DNA from: Mesorhizobium sp. NZP2077
GTDB lineage: Bacteria > Pseudomonadota > Alphaproteobacteria > Rhizobiales > Rhizobiaceae
DNA: 64,000 nt
Direction of reading: 5' to 3'
NCBI RefSeq assembly: GCF_013170805.1
Contig: NZ_CP051293.1
Coordinates: 5,028,001 to 5,092,000, forward strand
In this document: in pieces, positions 1 to 9,141 of the stretch
Layout: each line of letters begins with the position of its first letter
Position numbering within the stretch: position 1 is the first letter of the stretch
The notes under the pieces: generated by a model
The model's database searches: none
What the model was told of the DNA's origin: nothing
What the model saw: the letters and a program-made list of their open reading frames with translations, nothing else
Position numbers and translations under genes: made by a program

Positions 1-741
1 GCGGCCATCGATGCCGAATTGGGCGCCAAGCGGCTCCAGGAACGCCCAGACCGAGCCGAAGAACATGAAGTAGCAGAAGACGCACAACAGTGCGGTGATC
101 GAAGGAACCGTCAGCACATTGGCGAGGTTCTCGTCCTTGGGCAGGTCGGCGTAATCAGCAGGGACAACGAAGGCGACGAAGAGCGACAGGACGCAGACGA
201 CCGCGAGAATAAGGAAGCCACCCGCCGAACCGGCGTCCGGGATGACATAGAGCGCCAGCAGCAGCGCCAGCGCGCATTGCGCCAGCGTCTGCATGGTGAC
301 GAAAAAGCCGCCGATGCGTTCGGCCCGCCGCGAACGGGCAATCAATTCGGTGGCGACCGCGACCAGGCCGCCTTCGGCAAGGCCGGCCAGGGCGCGTGCC
401 GCTATCAACGCACTGGCGCCGGCGGCATAGGCCGTCCAGACATTCGCCAGCGCCAGCAGGAGCAGGAGGATCGCACTTTTCCAGCGCATGTTGTGGGCCG
501 ACAGCAGCATCGCAACGATCGCCGAGCCGATCGCAATGGCGATCATCTCGGCGGTGGCGACCAGTGCCAGTCCATCGCCGCTGACATGGCCCTCGGTGTA
601 GAGGGCGCCGAGCAGGACGGGTTGCAGACCGAGAATGAGCAGACCGACCGAGCCGATCCACAAGGCCGAGGCAAGCTGCCCGCCGGTCGGATTGCCGACC
701 AGCCAATCGCCGCTTCCGGTATATGCGTCACCAGATGCCAA
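1..741 (-). CDS. MFS transporter, partial (runs off window start)
   Basis: The reading frame is open from 741 to the window edge, giving 247 residues of a very hydrophobic protein with at least six membrane segments, for example around ALWIGSVGLLILGL and LLCVFCYFMFFGSVWAF. The alternation of helices and the loop AARALAGLAEGGL fit the major facilitator superfamily; the substrate cannot be told. There is no ATG; the best start is TTG at 741 with GGGAGG a few bases upstream. It diverges from a TetR-family gene with an imperfect palindrome between them, so it is probably the target of that repressor. The C-terminal part lies outside the window. Confidence 0.75.
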   Translation of the reverse strand, partial: MASGDAYTGSGDWLVGNPTGGQLASALWIGSVGLLILGLQPVLLGALYTEGHVSGDGLALVATAEMIAIAIGSAIVAMLLSAHNMRWKSAILLLLLALANVWTAYAAGASALIAARALAGLAEGGLVAVATELIARSRRAERIGGFFVTMQTLAQCALALLLALYVIPDAGSAGGFLILAVVCVLSLFVAFVVPADYADLPKDENLANVLTVPSITALLCVFCYFMFFGSVWAFLEPLGAQFGIDGR

Positions 742-792
742 AGCCGCCTCCCAACGTCTCTTGCCGGATCACAAAAAAGCTGACAACCTGTC

Positions 793-813
793 AGTATTTC
801 AGAAACTGATACT
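793..813. promoter_or_regulatory. Imperfect palindrome, probable TetR operator
   Basis: AGTATTTCAG-AAA-CTGATACT is an inverted repeat with a two-base bulge, between the divergent MFS gene and TetR gene. Position and symmetry suggest the TetR protein's own operator. No binding data. Confidence 0.45.
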
Positions 814-866
814 TGATCACATTTCTTGTCAACCAGAATTTGCCAATGCGTGCGAAAGACCGGTGC

Positions 867-1493
867 ATGACGGAAGCAAGGCGAACAGGGACCGAACCGA
901 GGCGCAAACCCAAGCAGGAGCGCAGCCGCGAGCGCATCGACGCCATCCTGTCGACGACCATGCGGCTGATCGGCGAGAAGGGCATCGATGCTGTCACCAT
1001 GAAGGAGGTCGGCATGCTGGCGGGCGGGCCGATCGCCACCGTCTATCACTACTTCCCCAACAAGTCGGCGATCCTGGCGATGCTCTATGAGCGGTTTTCA
1101 GAGGTCAGCCGCGCGCGATTGACTGATATCATCGCCGATGTCCGCGAAGCCAAGGACGTCATCGCCGCCGCCGACCGGTTGCTTGACGACTACCTCAGCC
1201 GCGTCGCCGGCGATCCGGCCATCCAGGATCTGCAGAACGCCATCCAGGCCGACAAGGCGCTGAAGAATCTCGACATCGCCGAAACCCGATATCAGGCCAA
1301 GATGTTCTGCGACCATGTCATCGCCTTGCTCGAGCCGGGCAAGCACGAGCAGTTCGAACGCATGGTTCTTTTGATCTTCCAGCTCGCCGGTGGCGTGGTG
1401 CGTCTGGCGCTTGCGGAAGGCGAAGCGGAAAGCCGTCGGACCATCGAGGATTACCGGTCGATCATCCACACCCAGTTGCGGCTGTTTTTGTAG
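867..1493 (+). CDS. TetR/AcrR family transcriptional regulator
   Basis: This 208-residue protein has an N-terminal helix-turn-helix at about residues 25-70, with the typical TVYHYFPNK recognition-helix motif at 58-66, and a helical C-terminal domain for ligand binding and dimerisation. Length is normal for TetR repressors. The ATG at 867 is preferred because the basic lead-in PRRKPKQERSRER then precedes the HTH directly, as in relatives; upstream starts at 813 and 846 would overlap or lie next to the putative operator. It is divergent from the MFS transporter, suggesting ligand-relieved repression of an efflux pump. The effector is unknown. Confidence 0.85.
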   Translation: MTEARRTGTEPRRKPKQERSRERIDAILSTTMRLIGEKGIDAVTMKEVGMLAGGPIATVYHYFPNKSAILAMLYERFSEVSRARLTDIIADVREAKDVIAAADRLLDDYLSRVAGDPAIQDLQNAIQADKALKNLDIAETRYQAKMFCDHVIALLEPGKHEQFERMVLLIFQLAGGVVRLALAEGEAESRRTIEDYRSIIHTQLRLFL

Positions 1494-1559
1494 CGCTGGC
1501 GATCGTCGGGAGCTGCGCCGAATGAGAGGTGTCGGGCGGCGTGAGCATCAGAGCGCCCG

Positions 1560-2411
1560 CTATGCGACCTGGCGGATAAGGCCTTCGAAGCCGTCGGCAA
1601 GGTTGGCATTGCCGGCAGCCACAAACGCAGAAAGGTTACGGGCGCCGCCGGGCGTTTTGTTGGCATCCAGCAGCACCGCCCTGCCCTCATGCATGACGAA
1701 ATCGAACTTTCCGTAGTCGAAGCCAAGCTGGCGCCTCAGCGCGCGAAGCTCCTCGGGAACCGGTACCGGCTCACGGCGGATCGTGTCGTCGCCCTTGACG
1801 AGGCTCTGCGGCGAGACATGGCGAGTGCAGCGCTCGCGCTCGCCACAGAATATCCAGAAGCGGGCGCCAAAGCCGTCCGACTCCGGCTCCGGAATGAATT
1901 TTTCGACGACGAGATCGCCGCGGGCGAAGACCGCCGGCGCAACATCCGAAAGGGATGCATAGACGCGATAGCCCTCGATAGGCTCGACACCGGGAAACGG
2001 CTTCGGCTTTCCGGCACGCAGCGATCGCCGGTTGAGCGCCTGCTCCCGCATCCCGAGATTGTTGAGATTGCTCTTGACGATGACCGACCCTAGCCAGCCG
2101 TCATCCTTGCCGATCACGGCGCCACTGACGCGTCGCTTGGAGATGTCTGCAGCCCCGATATTCAGGCAGAAGGGAAAAGCGCGTGCGTATTCGACATATT
2201 CGGGGGGCGTCACGGTCGCATCGACGTGCAGCACAGCGATGTCGGCCTCCGGCTTTGCCGACGTTCCGGGGATTATGCGGACGGAATGGCCGCGTCGCTT
2301 CAGTTCCTCCAGCAGATCGAAAAGCATGTAGGGACTGTCGCGGCGAAACAGCGGGCCGCGCCGGCGTTCGAACCTGTCGAACTCATGCGTAATAACCGCG
2401 ATGCGTGTCAT
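1560..2411 (-). CDS. ATP-grasp family protein
   Basis: This 283-residue protein resembles the RimK/ATP-grasp group that couples ATP to ligation of a carboxylate with an amine or thiol. Support comes from the C-terminal metal and ATP site GKFDFVMHEGR...LLDANKTPGG (residues 234-256, with D237, D249 and N251) and a central VIVKSN segment near residue 112. The ATG at 2411 is chosen because the protein then begins with a beta strand (MTRIAVITHEF), as pre-ATP-grasp domains do. It is divergent from a methyltransferase 72 bases away, and the two may act on one small molecule or peptide. Substrate unknown. Confidence 0.7.
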   Translation of the reverse strand: MTRIAVITHEFDRFERRRGPLFRRDSPYMLFDLLEELKRRGHSVRIIPGTSAKPEADIAVLHVDATVTPPEYVEYARAFPFCLNIGAADISKRRVSGAVIGKDDGWLGSVIVKSNLNNLGMREQALNRRSLRAGKPKPFPGVEPIEGYRVYASLSDVAPAVFARGDLVVEKFIPEPESDGFGARFWIFCGERERCTRHVSPQSLVKGDDTIRREPVPVPEELRALRRQLGFDYGKFDFVMHEGRAVLLDANKTPGGARNLSAFVAAGNANLADGFEGLIRQVA

Positions 2412-2483
2412 GCGCCCCCCGAGCTTGGTTTCATTAGCGTCCTCGATTATGCCTGCAAATACAATGCCGGCTTGGGGGTGTGG

Positions 2484-3281
2484 ATGACCGACCATTGGAA
2501 TGCCATTCGAGAGCACTGGCAATTGCTCGGGCCACCGTTGCGGCCGCCGGCGGAAGCGGTTGAAGCCTATGAGCGTGAGCTCGACCTTTCGAAGGCGCAC
2601 GTCATTCTGCTCGGCGTGACGCCGGAACTCGCCGGGCTCGGGACGACGATGACGGCCGTCGACGAATCCGCCGACATGATCGCCGGTATCTGGCCAGGCG
2701 ACACCGCGTTGCGAAAGGCAATCAACGGCGACTGGCTCGACTTGCCGATGTCGGACGCAAGCGTCGACGCGGTGATCGGCGACGGCTGCCTGTCGGCGCT
2801 CGGCCTTTCAACCGCGCGCCGGGCGCTGTTTGCGTCAATCGCCGGCGTACTGCGCACCGACGGCCGAGCTGGACTGCGTCTCTTTGCCGGTCCCGAAACA
2901 CCGGACGATCCGGCGGCGGTGCGAGCGCTTGCACTGTCGGGCAGTGTCTCGACCTTCCACGAACTCAAATGGCGCGTCGCCATGACCGCGACGGGCGATG
3001 AGCCCGACCATGCCATTCCGGTCAGGACGATCGCGGAAAGATTCGATACACTGTTTCCCGACCGCGAAGTGCTTTCGGCTCGCACGGGCTGGGACCTGCT
3101 CACCATTGGCACCATCGATGTCTATCGGAACTCGCCGGCCATCTACAGCTTCGCGCCGGCGACTGCACTGGTGAGCGAGGCGCAAGCCTTCTTTGGTGAT
3201 GTCCGCATCGCTTTGACCGGTAGCTATGGGCTCGCCGAGCGGTGCCCGCTGTTGGTGCTTGGGTCGCCGAGGCACCGGTAA
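2484..3281 (+). CDS. Class I SAM-dependent methyltransferase
   Basis: This 265-residue protein has a Rossmann-type methyltransferase core: motif I VILLGVTPEL (about 40-49), the acidic end of strand 2 at TAVDES (D60), and NGDWLDLPMSDASVDAVIGD, the usual motif that marks bound S-adenosylmethionine. The C-terminal third is less typical. The ATG at 2484 fits the start of the domain (MTDHWNAIREHW); a purine-rich GGGGGTGTGG precedes it. It is divergent from the ATP-grasp gene. The methyl acceptor cannot be read from sequence. Confidence 0.75.
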   Translation: MTDHWNAIREHWQLLGPPLRPPAEAVEAYERELDLSKAHVILLGVTPELAGLGTTMTAVDESADMIAGIWPGDTALRKAINGDWLDLPMSDASVDAVIGDGCLSALGLSTARRALFASIAGVLRTDGRAGLRLFAGPETPDDPAAVRALALSGSVSTFHELKWRVAMTATGDEPDHAIPVRTIAERFDTLFPDREVLSARTGWDLLTIGTIDVYRNSPAIYSFAPATALVSEAQAFFGDVRIALTGSYGLAERCPLLVLGSPRHR

Positions 3282-3405
3282 GCTTTTTGGGACGGCTGTT
3301 GTCGAATGATAATCGGTGGGTAACGCCGGCACATCGAAGTCTCGGCCGACATGAATATCCGGCCTGTTTCGCCGCAACGGACCCGGTCCGCCACGCTCAA
3401 CAAAC

Positions 3406-3433
3406 TTTACATCGGCCAGCCGCAAACTAGACT
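3406..3433 (+). promoter_or_regulatory. Possible sigma-70-like promoter
   Basis: TTTACA and TAGACT are separated by 16 bases, placing a transcription start near 3440, just upstream of the pepsin-like gene. Consensus match only. Confidence 0.3.
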
Positions 3434-3466
3434 TTCTCCGGCAGTTCAGTCCTGCGGGGGGATATT

Positions 3467-4540
3467 TTGGAGATTCGCTTTCGATGCTTTGCACGTCTGA
3501 TGGCAATCGCCTTGGCGCTTGGGGCCACATTGTCACCAGCCCAATCCGGAGACGAACGCGCATCGACCGTACCCCTGATCAAATTGGAGTACCCGGGAAG
3601 GCCAAGGAATGTTCGCATGCTTTACGTGAAGGTCCTTTCGCTCGGCAATCACACGGTAAACCAGCCGATCCTGTTTGATGCCGGATCGAGCGGAATGACG
3701 ATCGAATGCCAATCGGTGCTCCCAGCAGAGATCTGCTCGGACACGGGAATCAAGATCACGCACGATCTGGAGATAGACGGGATAAGGGTCAGCACCCAAC
3801 AGGCTGTTATGAACTACGCAACCTACGATGAGTATGGCAACATCGCCTACGCTCGCGTGACTTTCGGTTCGCCGAAATCCCCAGTCTCCACCGACACCAC
3901 GATCCCATTCCTCATCCGCTACAAGCAAGTCAGGCGCAGCACCGGAGAAATCGTTGGTGGCCCGCTCTGGCCCAAGGGCATTTTCGGCATCTCGCCAGTT
4001 GGCGGAGGCGGGCCAGATCGGATGATCAAATCGCCGCTCGCGCTTGTAAGCGTCGGCCCGGGCCTGGACAGGGGCTATTACCTCTCGCCGATAGGAGCAA
4101 AGTGGAAAATCTGCACGAATGAGGCCGGCAATTGTCCGCAAGTGGAGGCGCTCCACATCGGCGTGCCGCAGGACGTAAAAAAGGACTTCAGGGTGCAAAG
4201 ATGGAAAGAGGCCAGCCGGCGATACAATTTTCCCACTATCGACGCCTGTATCTCATGGGGATTTGAACCGACATGTCGGCCGACGCTTTACGATACGGGC
4301 AACTCAACAATTATGGTCCCTGCCGACGCCTCGGCGCCGTACTCATCGCTGAACCCCGGCACAAAGGTCCTGGTAAAAGCAGACGGCCAGGAGGATTGGA
4401 ATTTCAAGACAACCTACAATCCCGAAGTGGAGGTCATTCCCGGGCTTGAACACAACATCGTCGGCATCCGGTATTTCGAGAAGAACAGCCTGCTGCTTGA
4501 TTTTGAAACCCGGGAAATCGGCTTAAGTCTCGGACACTGA
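3467..4540 (+). CDS. Secreted pepsin-like aspartic peptidase homologue
   Basis: This 357-residue protein shows the two-lobe plan of family A1 aspartic peptidases. Lobe 1 carries ILFDAGSSGMTIE with D71, and lobe 2 carries PTLYDTGNSTIMVP with D276; these match the paired DTGSS motifs of pepsin. GIFGISP (171-177) corresponds to the pepsin GILGL segment, and the C terminus IVGIRYFEKN...LDFETREIGL matches the closing ILGD...FD...GLA strand. A signal peptide (basic start, hydrophobic LMAIALALGATL, cleavage near PAQS) implies export. Six cysteines in the mature part (C81, C90, C216, C223, C261, C270) could form three disulfides. The start is TTG at 3467 after GCGGGGGGA; starting at ATG 3500 would remove the basic n-region. 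Ala replaces Thr after the first catalytic Asp, which may lower activity. Confidence 0.7.
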   Translation: MEIRFRCFARLMAIALALGATLSPAQSGDERASTVPLIKLEYPGRPRNVRMLYVKVLSLGNHTVNQPILFDAGSSGMTIECQSVLPAEICSDTGIKITHDLEIDGIRVSTQQAVMNYATYDEYGNIAYARVTFGSPKSPVSTDTTIPFLIRYKQVRRSTGEIVGGPLWPKGIFGISPVGGGGPDRMIKSPLALVSVGPGLDRGYYLSPIGAKWKICTNEAGNCPQVEALHIGVPQDVKKDFRVQRWKEASRRYNFPTIDACISWGFEPTCRPTLYDTGNSTIMVPADASAPYSSLNPGTKVLVKADGQEDWNFKTTYNPEVEVIPGLEHNIVGIRYFEKNSLLLDFETREIGLSLGH

Positions 4541-4651
4541 TTGCCGATCGGCAGGACGGCATTCGGGCAGAGTTCGGGCGGCAGCCCTTATTTTGCGCAA
4601 TCGCCCGGCAGCACGAGAAAAATTTCCTGCGATTGCCCCTTCCCGCGCGCC

Positions 4652-4680
4652 TTGACTCTCTGAGGTCGGCAGCCTATTTC
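4652..4680 (+). promoter_or_regulatory. groESL promoter
   Basis: TTGACT (4652-4657) and TATTTC (4675-4680) are spaced by 17 bases and lie just before the CIRCE element, so the start point should fall near 4687. It fits a housekeeping sigma promoter repressed by HrcA. Confidence 0.6.
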
Positions 4681-4689
4681 AGCGCTACG

Positions 4690-4716
4690 TTAGCACTCGC
4701 CCTTGGTGAGTGCTAA
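4690..4716. promoter_or_regulatory. CIRCE operator (HrcA binding site)
   Basis: TTAGCACTC, nine bases, GAGTGCTAA: a perfect match to the CIRCE inverted repeat bound by the heat-shock repressor HrcA. It sits at the expected transcription start of groESL. Confidence 0.95.
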
Positions 4717-4779
4717 CCACATGTCCGGCTTCGCCGGACGGAGGAACTGTTTCTCACCGTTCTCATCGAGGAAGAAAAA

Positions 4780-5076
4780 ATGGCAAAGTCGAAGTTCCGC
4801 CCGCTTCATGACCGCGTGGTCGTTCGCCGGGTCGAATCCGAATCCAAGACCGCCGGCGGGATCATCATCCCGGATACGGCAAAGGAAAAGCCGCAGGAAG
4901 GCGAAATCATCGCCGTCGGCTCCGGCGCTCGCGACGAAGCTGGCAAGCTGGTCCCGCTGGACGTCAAGGCTGGCGACCGCATCCTGTTCGGCAAGTGGTC
5001 GGGCACCGAAGTCAAGCTCAATGGCGAAGACCTTCTGATCATGAAGGAATCCGACATCATGGGCATCATCGGCTGA
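4780..5076 (+). CDS. groES: Co-chaperonin GroES
   Basis: This 98-residue protein is a clear Gro[16 protein letters not shown] at the start, the mobile-loop region with [22 protein letters not shown]-type strand [13 protein letters not shown] and the ending [15 protein letters not shown]. It forms the heptameric lid of the GroEL cage in the cytoplasm and lets ATP-driven folding proceed. GAGGAAG precedes the ATG. It is the first gene of the groESL operon, 61 bases upstream of groEL, behind a CIRCE operator, so it should be induced when HrcA loses activity during heat stress. Confidence 0.98.
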
Positions 5077-5134
5077 TTATCGGCCTCACCGTCAACTGAA
5101 TTCGGGCTTACCCCAAGCCCCTGCCAGGAGCTAA

Positions 5135-6793
<1,659 letters not shown>

Positions 6794-7065: not shown

Positions 7066-9141
7066 ATGCAGTTTTTCCGGCGATTTTTGCGGAACCGCGA
7101 CGGCAACGTGCTGATCATCTCGGCACTGGTGATGCCGGTGCTGATCGGCATGGCCGCCCTGGTGACCGAATATGGCGCCGCTCTGGTCGAGCGGGCCGAC
7201 AATCAGCGCGTGGCCGACCTGTCGGCCTATGCAGGGGCGCTTGCCTACAATGTGAACAAGTCCACCGACCAGATGACTGCGACCGCCGTCAGCGTCGCGG
7301 TGCTCAACGGCGTCACCGCCGCCAATGTACAGGTCAGCCTGGTTGCTTCCCCGAAAACGACCAGCGTCAACGCCGTCTCGGTGTCGATCAACACCTACAG
7401 GACCCTGTTCCTGGCACGCGTCCTCAATGATCGCCAGCAACTGCAGATCTACGCAAATTCCGTGGCAGAGGTTGGCGCACAGCCGCAGACGCCCGGATGC
7501 ATGCTTGCGCTCGACGGCATACAGACCGGCCTGACGCTGAGCGGCGGCACCTCGATCTCGGCACCGAAATGCACCGTCTCTTCCAACAACACGGTGACCG
7601 TCCCGTGCGGCACCAGCATTTCGGCGCTCGGCGTCAACTACAATTCCGCCGCCGCCCCGAGCCAGCCTTGCAACGGCATCACCGGCCCAGGTGGGGCGAC
7701 CGCGGTGATCACCAAGAAATCAACCCCCGACCCGCTGGCCAGCAATGCCGCGGTCACGGCCGCGGTGGCCCGCATTGCAACGGTTGCCGCGCTTTCGACA
7801 ACGGCCGCGCCAACAGCGCCGACCACTCCCAACGGCAAAGACATCGACTTCGGCTGGAACCAAGGCCCCACTCAGGGCCAGGCGAACGCAGTCGGCTGCA
7901 CCGCCAGTTGGGCATCGTCGTCATCGACCTGGACGCTGGACTGCGGCGGCAAAACCACGGTCAACCTGGGCATCGTCACCATCGGCGGCGGCATCAACCT
8001 CAACTTCGCCACAAGCGGCGCGGCAACGACCGTCTACAATATCGCCGGCGATCTCACGACCAGTGCCACCACCAATTTCGGGCCAGGCACCTACAACTTC
8101 GCCAAGACCCTCACCACGGCGGGAACCACCACGTTCGGGGCCGGCACCTACAATTTCGGCAAGCAGGTCACCACCGCCGGAACAACAAGCTTTGGCGCCG
8201 GCACGTTCAACTTCGCCAAGGGGCTGACCACGGGTTACGGCACCACGACCTTCGGCGCCGGCACCTTCAAGATCGGCCGCAGCGATAACGCCTGCAACGG
8301 CGGGGGGCAGGTCAGCATCTGCAACGCGTCTACCTTGATCTTCGGCGGACCGAGCATTTTCGAGCTCCCCGGCGGCTATACCAACACCGGCGGTTCGACG
8401 CTCACCTTTGGCTCGGGCACGACCAATTCCTACAAGATCGGCCCGGGCAGCAATGGCGATGCCATCACGCTGGGCGGGGGTTCGACGACGATCATGGCCG
8501 ACGCGACCGGCGCCAACAGCGTTTTCCAAGTCGTCGGCAATGTGAATGGCGGCGGCGGCGGGAGTTGCTTTGTGGTGCCGGCCGCGGCCCAGCACGACAT
8601 CTCCGGCAACTTCGCCGGCTCGGGCGCCATCCTGCTCGGCGCCGGCGTCTACACCGTGGATGGCTATTTCGCGCTAGGCGGCAATGGCGGCGGCAGCGCT
8701 AACTGCAACGGCAGCACGATCAGCGTCAGCGGCGCCAATGTAACGCTTGTCCTGTCAGGCAAGACCAAATCCAGTTCGGGCAGTTGCAACGGCTATGTCT
8801 TCTGCGTCGCCGCCGGCTACAGCAACATCGTGCTCACCGCACCTCAATCGGGAGCGACGGCGAAGCTTGCAGTGATCGGTCCGACAGCAACCACAAACAC
8901 TGGCGGCGCGACCTTCGCCGAGGGCGGCTCCAACGCGCAGATATCAGGCGCATTCTACTTTCCCTACGGCCCGATCGTCATGAATGGCGGCTCGAGCGTG
9001 CTGGGATCGAAGACCGACACGACCAAGTGCTTGCAGATGATCGGCTCACGCATCACGCTATCGGGCGGCACCGCGGCCGCGTCGGAATGCATCGCCGCCT
9101 CGAGCACCAGTGCCAGCAGCAAGGTGAGTCTCGTGCAATGA
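7066..9141 (+). CDS. TadG-like surface protein with tandem 19-residue repeats
   Basis: This 691-residue protein begins RRFLRNRDGNVLIISALVMPVLIGMAALVTEYG, the prepilin-like membrane anchor of TadG/TadE proteins, so it should sit in the inner membrane with a large exported part. The rest is rich in Gly, Thr, Ser and Ala with scattered cysteines. Residues 331-404 (8056-8277) hold four repeats built on TTxxTTxFGAGTxNFxK, of a regularity that suggests a beta-solenoid. The repeats differ mostly at silent positions, so the protein pattern is under selection. The stop overlaps the next start (ATGA). No Tad ATPase or secretin lies nearby; secretion must use machinery encoded elsewhere. Role in adhesion or the envelope is inferred. 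Confidence 0.7.
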   Translation: MQFFRRFLRNRDGNVLIISALVMPVLIGMAALVTEYGAALVERADNQRVADLSAYAGALAYNVNKSTDQMTATAVSVAVLNGVTAANVQVSLVASPKTTSVNAVSVSINTYRTLFLARVLNDRQQLQIYANSVAEVGAQPQTPGCMLALDGIQTGLTLSGGTSISAPKCTVSSNNTVTVPCGTSISALGVNYNSAAAPSQPCNGITGPGGATAVITKKSTPDPLASNAAVTAAVARIATVAALSTTAAPTAPTTPNGKDIDFGWNQGPTQGQANAVGCTASWASSSSTWTLDCGGKTTVNLGIVTIGGGINLNFATSGAATTVYNIAGDLTTSATTNFGPGTYNFAKTLTTAGTTTFGAGTYNFGKQVTTAGTTSFGAGTFNFAKGLTTGYGTTTFGAGTFKIGRSDNACNGGGQVSICNASTLIFGGPSIFELPGGYTNTGGSTLTFGSGTTNSYKIGPGSNGDAITLGGGSTTIMADATGANSVFQVVGNVNGGGGGSCFVVPAAAQHDISGNFAGSGAILLGAGVYTVDGYFALGGNGGGSANCNGSTISVSGANVTLVLSGKTKSSSGSCNGYVFCVAAGYSNIVLTAPQSGATAKLAVIGPTATTNTGGATFAEGGSNAQISGAFYFPYGPIVMNGGSSVLGSKTDTTKCLQMIGSRITLSGGTAAASECIAASSTSASSKVSLVQ
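8056..8277 (+). repeat. Four in-frame 57-bp repeats inside the TadG-like gene
   Basis: Units begin at 8056, 8113, 8170 and 8227 (the last slightly shorter) and encode the TTxxTTxFGAGTxNF pattern. Divergence is mainly at third codon positions. Confidence 0.8.

Follow-up and report, generated by a model that had tools for sequence, protein, structure and literature searches.

A gene of Mesorhizobium sp. NZP2077 encodes a pepsin-like protein. On a balance somewhat in favor of this reading, it would be a two-lobed, pepsin-type aspartic peptidase that is exported, either to the periplasm or out of the cell. The family is small and bacterial, and the copy found here would be a weakened one. The gene lies in a 64,000-nucleotide stretch of DNA, which we analyzed as a whole and call the window. 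An earlier note, made from the sequence alone, had read this ORF as a pepsin-like protein, and the sequence elements it named are all where it placed them: DAGSSG at residues 71-76, DTGNST at residues 276-281, the GIFGISP segment, and the closing strand IVGIRYFEKN...IGL. Its signal-peptide-like N terminus and six mature cysteines were likewise correctly read. If the protein is a peptidase, D71 and D276 would bind a water molecule and activate it for attack on the peptide bond, with the flap that bears Y117 closing over the substrate; the exported protein would be stabilized by three disulfides. The features on which this reading is built are listed in Table 1.

Table 1. Features of the pepsin-like gene and the segment that carries it, in window positions
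Feature	Positions	Strand	Basis
Optional segment with the pepsin-like gene, about 1.3 kb	3272..4606		No counterpart in genome G027 (locus L043)
Gene of a putative exported pepsin-like protein	3467..4540	+	ORF with TTG start, 357 aa; 84 homologues
Signal-peptide-like N terminus, residues 1 to about 27	3467..3547	+	Sequence; cleavage guessed by eye, after ...SPAQS
First putative catalytic motif, D71-A72-G73-S74-S75-G76 (family: DTGSxG)	3677..3694	+	Conservation; D71 on pepsin Asp32 in 30/30 alignments
Putative flap motif, Y117-A118-T119 (family: Y-G-T)	3815..3823	+	Y117 on Tyr75 in 30/30; 0/40 with permuted columns
First hydrophobic-hydrophobic-Gly (psi-loop) segment, GIFGISP, residues 171-177	3977..3997	+	G174 in 88/89; on Gly122 in 29/30
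Second putative catalytic motif, D276-T277-G278-N279-S280-T281	4292..4309	+	D276 in 84/85; on Asp215 in 30/30, 0/20 with motif masked
Closing segment IVGIRYFEKNSLLLDFETREIGL, residues 331-353, with second hydrophobic-hydrophobic-Gly (G333), D345 and G352	4457..4525	+	G333 in 80/80

A search of about 5.8 billion proteins returned 84 homologues at E<=1e-3, and a profile search, which scored the 8,000 candidates sharing most words, returned 81 relatives, five of them new. Conservation was counted over 89 relatives plus the window protein, each wherever a letter is present. The family alignment holds the window protein and 64 of the 84 relatives; the 20 omitted are mostly shorter and also include the full-length P0005, P0007, and P0018. 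Both Asp residues, the flap Tyr, and both glycines of the hydrophobic-hydrophobic-Gly (hhG) motifs are kept in 94 to 100% of the sequences with a letter at the position. D71 is present in 82 of 84 (Gly in P0034, Ala in P0080), D276 in 84 of 85, Y117 in 83 of 88 (Phe in five), G174 in 88 of 89, and G333 in all 80. The earlier note had let its reading depend on orthologues retaining both Asp residues; this largely holds, and the two sequences lacking the first Asp are too few to overturn it. Around these residues, T72 is found in 83 of 84 sequences (the single Ala is that of the window), G73 in all 84, T277 in all 85, G278 in 82 of 85 (three Ala), N279 in 79 of 84 (three Ala, two Ser), and G118 in 77 of 88 (five Ala, the window among these, five Glu, and one Met). 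Cysteines 81, 90, 223, 261, and 270 are invariant and C216 is kept in 86 of 88; these are the six of the mature part, with C7 lying inside the signal peptide. Furthermore, 14 other congeneric genomes carry the gene, and among their proteins, which partly overlap with the relatives, T72 is kept in all 14, whereas G118 and G278 are each kept in 13, with Ala replacing the former in L009 and the latter in L006.

The ratio dN/dS lies between 0.083 and 0.149 in 12 of the 14 window pairs where it was computable, and the highest value of any pair is 0.423. Because of the 84 homologues and the low dN/dS, the ORF is not a chance one; it is a pepsin-like gene under purifying selection, present in a single copy in its own genome. 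A TTG stands at the aligned start point also in L002 and L008, and a GTG in L003, each downstream of a G-rich stretch. Of the 65 relatives examined, out of 89 in total, 64 have a hydrophobic 12-mer (mean Kyte-Doolittle value above 1.6) in their N-terminal part. Three database proteins of 307 aa (P0001, P0009, and P0012) start at a Met matching M51 and hence lack the signal peptide; their short length probably reflects a true start at TTG or GTG.

The conservation pattern bears on whether the family has kept the pepsin fold and given up proteolysis, serving instead as an exported binding or inhibitor-like protein, a reading we regard as unlikely. The residue usually found after the Gly of the second A1 motif is Ser, Thr, or Ala, and here it is Asn (79/84). 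D71 is sporadically lost (2/84), the Gly of the second motif is replaced by Ala in 3 of 85 and in L006, and the window copy carries DAG; these departures would fit a family without activity, as would weak matches to TAXi_C in 4 of 65 members. The resulting DTA is the second motif of P0018, P0052, P0061, and L006 (M. prunaredense, genome G040). A comparison of L006 with its near relative L007 gives 13 replacement and 10 silent codons in the 322 of the mature part, a sign of looser constraint in this pair that also counts toward a non-proteolytic family. There is precedent in inactive A1 homologues such as a plant xylanase inhibitor and the pregnancy-associated glycoproteins (PMC2761423). However, a binding protein would have no need of D71 (98%), D276 (99%), the flap Tyr (94%), and both psi-loop glycines, all of which are kept. 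The earlier note had raised the idea of a decoy from Ala72. As a family feature we reject this, because T72 is kept family-wide, Ala occurs in the window copy alone, and the gene is under purifying selection. We favor an aspartic peptidase as the product of the family.

The Thr-to-Ala change that the earlier note pointed out is not a family trait: Ala is found in only 1 of 84 sequences and in none of the 14 other congeneric genomes. Between the window copy and its nearest relative (L002, genome G135), codon 72 is GCC versus ACC and codon 118 is GCA versus GGA, and six outgroups have Thr at 72 and Gly at 118. Among the sequences examined, only the window copy has Ala72, which is accompanied on the same branch by the change of the flap Y-G to Y-A; the relatives were clustered at 90% identity, so an Ala72 member of the window's own cluster could be hidden. 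The dN/dS between the window copy and L002 is 0.113 over the whole ORF and 0.083 over the mature part. By reading of the codon table, seven replacements in the mature part fall on the window branch (positions 47, 49, 72, 118, 215, 286, and 354), and two of them lie on 17 catalytic-core positions (P 0.046, with the position set picked post hoc).

A further reading, which we hold to be improbable, is that the family is enzymatic and the window copy alone is dead, or nearly so, through DAG plus YAT. Two of about seven branch replacements on the catalytic core would agree with such a loss, as would HIV-1 protease, in which the same Thr-to-Ala change leaves residual activity only, with dimer failure given as the cause (PMC7212762, citing Strisovsky et al. 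2000). However, the loss in HIV-1 protease is tied to a failure of the dimer, to which a single chain is not subject. The dN/dS of 0.083 relative to the nearest relative likewise argues against a dead copy, as does the presence of G118A in four other relatives and in L009. A weakened enzyme is our preferred reading of the window copy: the Thr-to-Ala change in the first motif and the Gly-to-Ala change after the flap Tyr probably lower activity without destroying the fold in this strain, and a single-chain enzyme with Ala72 would be expected to have reduced rather than abolished activity.

To compare the family with pepsin, we assembled an A1 set of 38 rows comprising bacterial PF00026 proteins, porcine pepsin, and endothiapepsin, the last two after a check of their identity. 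The bacterial A1 proteins came from PF00026 matches in 7 of 398 genomes (6 above the cut-off) and from a protein search started with one such protein (drawing on the best 120 of 1,247 at E<=1e-5). Each profile score was tested against 100 column shuffles. The full-length family profile scored 36.3 against A1 (null mean 15.8, maximum 22.6), and the N-lobe scored 36.6 against the A1 N-lobe (null mean 13.0, sd 2.3, maximum 19.7); the latter comparison placed D71 over Asp32 and Y117 over Tyr75. The C-lobe gave a weak score of 18.5 against the A1 C-lobe, and 3 of 100 shuffles were as high. Across lobes, N on C scored 21.1 (3/100 shuffles as high) and C on N scored 30.4 (0/100), and the family's own N half against its own C half reached 34.6 (0/100) over just 23 columns around the DTG motifs. 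By its own measure, hhalign assigned a probability of 34% to the full-length match, 74% to that of the N-lobe, and 1.4% to that of C-lobe against C-lobe. Other profile comparisons with bacterial A1 sets aligned the N-lobe parts alone, and global hhalign aligned 3 columns, a meaningless result.

As a second method, we ran unconstrained MAFFT on 30 random subsets together with pepsin, endothiapepsin, and bacterial A1 peptidases. In the first half of the protein, D71 paired with Asp32 and Y117 with Tyr75 in all 30 alignments and G174 with Gly122 in 29; in the second half, D276 paired with Asp215 and D345 with Asp314 in all 30, G333 with Gly302 in 29, and G352 with Gly321 in 26. Of the cysteines, C81 and C261 never coincided with a pepsin cysteine, C90 did so in 2 of 30, and C270 was never exactly on Cys210, lying no more than three columns away in 30 of 30. 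Control alignments with unchanged columns paired the landmarks in 16 to 20 of 20. When the columns outside the DTG motifs were permuted (40 alignments), D71 still paired in 38 and D276 in 34, and the remaining landmarks were lost (Y117 0, G174 1, G333 0, D345 2, G352 1). When the DTG motifs were masked, D71, Y117, G174, G333, D345, and G352 paired in 17 to 20 of 20 and D276 in 0 of 20. Together, the permuted and masked controls indicate that the order of the landmarks exceeds the effect of two DTG words, and the loss of D276 on masking means that the second Asp is kept in register by its own motif. The want of an above-cut-off family match and the weak C-lobe score might suggest an exported protein of unrelated fold that resembles pepsin in its two short DTG words alone. 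This is very improbable, given non-DTG landmarks that pair in order relative to permuted controls and, for all but D276, with DTG masked, and given that the N-lobe profile outscored all 100 shuffles.

The pepsin-like reading is well supported at the level of sequence, with the fold and the activity putative, and formal membership in family A1 is unproven. What the earlier note had called the A1 plan is borne out by the N-lobe profile and the seven aligned landmarks and is less evident in the weak C-lobe and in the Pfam Asp model (PF00026), whose matches, in 3 of 65 members, stay below the cut-off (best E 0.048). Other below-cut-off Pfam matches among the 65 members were to PE-PGRS_C in 18 (best E 0.0035), TAXi_C in 4 (0.013), and Asp_protease_2 (PF13650) in 4 (0.035). 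At the cut-off, none of the 65 members, the window protein, and the family consensus sequence matched Pfam, and the window protein had no match in NCBIfam. In the 146 congeneric genomes the Pfam Asp model had no match, but it was equally silent in 14 control genomes. The family is therefore a bacterial pepsin-like one beyond the reach of the domain libraries searched (Pfam, at cut-off). In UniRef, one of the relatives (P0019) carries the name "Peptidase A1 domain-containing protein". Sequence searches of the PDB with the single protein or the profile gave no match beyond chance; the profile search listed plasmepsin V at E 0.72, and designed "Cake" proteins from the single-protein search were set aside as a repeat artifact. 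A match of the window protein to Ntox24 (E 0.21) was below the cut-off and was dismissed as noise. Titles and abstract openings among the matches listed for rhizobial pepsin-type aspartic proteases, shewasins, and bacterial family A1 contained no report on this protein.

Among the closest known systems, the family resembles A1 (pepsin and endothiapepsin; MEROPS clan AA), with two D-T-G motifs in one chain (205 residues apart here), a flap Tyr, two hhG motifs, a signal peptide, three possible disulfides, and the landmarks in order. It differs in lacking a Pfam Asp match at the cut-off, in its DTGN second motif, in the placement of C81, C261, and nearly always C90 off the pepsin cysteines, and in a compact second half, in which Asp and hhG are 57 residues apart versus 87 in pepsin; the window copy further differs in its DAG. 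The A1 motif is worded as hydrophobic-hydrophobic-Asp-[TS]-Gly-[STA] around each Asp (PMC4814920). The first family motif (LFDTGS) agrees with this wording, whereas the DAG of the window copy and the Asn after Gly in the second motif do not.

Shewasins and other bacterial A1 homologues (Shewanella, Colwellia, Sinorhizobium medicae, and Bradyrhizobium relatives) share the bacterial origin, the two-lobed plan, and both Asp residues, but they match PF00026 and the present family does not. The described bacterial pepsin homologues have no signal peptide (PMC2761423), and shewasin D is mainly cytoplasmic (PMC4814920), whereas nearly all relatives examined here have a hydrophobic N-terminal stretch. 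The domain of PE_PGRS16/PecA (Pfam PE-PGRS_C, PF20729) gives the family its best below-cut-off Pfam match, and PecA is described as an exported mycobacterial aspartic protease domain with DTG/DSG (PMC6819658). However, the window protein reaches 14.8 bits against a cut-off of 33, over residues 63-99 alone, and, compared through the Pfam model, it has no PE or PGRS part. Retropepsin-like bacterial proteases such as Rickettsia APRc (family A2 type) are one-lobed and act as dimers. They share the DTG motif and the clan with the family, 4 of whose 65 members match PF13650 weakly, but the protein here has both motifs in a single chain, whereas a retropepsin has one lobe and acts as a dimer (PMC2761423). 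More tentatively, the relatives may constitute a separate family of clan AA: pepsin-like enzymes of bacteria that are exported, disulfide-bonded, optional in their hosts, and marked by Asp-Thr-Gly-Asn as the second motif. In such a family, some lineages would be turning non-catalytic, and the window member would be a natural single-chain test of whether the "fireman's grip" Thr is needed.

The gene is present in 15 of 146 congeneric genomes, the window's own included (13 of the 139 better ones). Across the class, 385 genomes yielded only the window's own as positive, with no more than the five best candidates scored per genome. A degenerate-pattern scan of one genome per species (84,980 species) found 10 loci, nine in Mesorhizobium and one in Rhodobacter sp. 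SW2, and the named protein matches extend the hosts to Dongia and to MAGs of Bradyrhizobium and Dongiaceae. This is a small bacterial family in which every named host is alphaproteobacterial. No match turned up in the plasmid collection and no relative in the viral contigs, and a plasmid or viral origin was rejected on this basis. A role in symbiosis only is not favored by the relatives in Rhodobacter sp. SW2 and Dongia.

In the window, positions 3272-4606 form a clean presence/absence segment between a methyltransferase gene and groESL: blastn against L043 aligned only positions 727-3271 (95.6%) and 4607-6031 (97.1%). The gene adjoins groES in ten of the 15 genomes. Six of these have tetR, an ORF, the methyltransferase gene, and groEL all in order (L036, L037, L041/L019, L020, L021, and L023), and four have only part of this set (L005, L016, L017, and L018). 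In the other five genomes (L038, L039, L040/L025, L022, and L024), tetR, the ORF, the methyltransferase gene, groES, and groEL are all absent beside the gene. The methyltransferase has a match in 79 of 146 genomes; among its best 30 loci, 27 are directly followed by groES and have no match to the pepsin-like gene, two have the gene (one being the window), and one is at a contig end. The GC content of the gene is 56%, versus 60 to 64% for tetR, the methyltransferase gene, and groEL. Furthermore, the segment is missing from G027 (L043), which is nearest in the flanks, whereas in G135 (L036), nearest in the gene itself, the methyltransferase is just 56% identical; this disagreement indicates that the locus is a mosaic. 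No operon partner is constant, and across 17 loci in 15 genomes there is no constant neighbor gene that points to a substrate.

Several other features of the surroundings were recorded. A perfect inverted repeat, TTAGCACTC-N9-GAGTGCTAA, which we take to be a CIRCE heat-shock operator, lies at 4690-4716 upstream of groES (4780-5076) and groEL (5138-6793). Conserved ORFs at 1560-2600 (minus strand) and 2226-3281 (plus strand) overlap on opposite strands; the latter is the methyltransferase, for which many relatives match only from about residue 80, so its start may be near 2466. Further downstream, positions 7066-9141 encode a 691-aa protein whose N-terminal segment is of the Tad type (PF13400, E 5.5e-7) and is followed by Gly/Thr/Ser-rich near-repeats.

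That pepsin-like enzymes exist in bacteria was already known, and the family described here leaves that picture unchanged. For exported enzymes, mycobacterial PecA is a bacterial precedent (PMC6819658). If exported, a family of this kind in Mesorhizobium and other alphaproteobacteria, with its unusual DTGN motif, would broaden the range of pepsins known from bacteria. In addition, the DTG and DAG forms occur as a natural pair of about 96% identity, which would allow a direct test of what the active-site Thr does in a one-chain enzyme.
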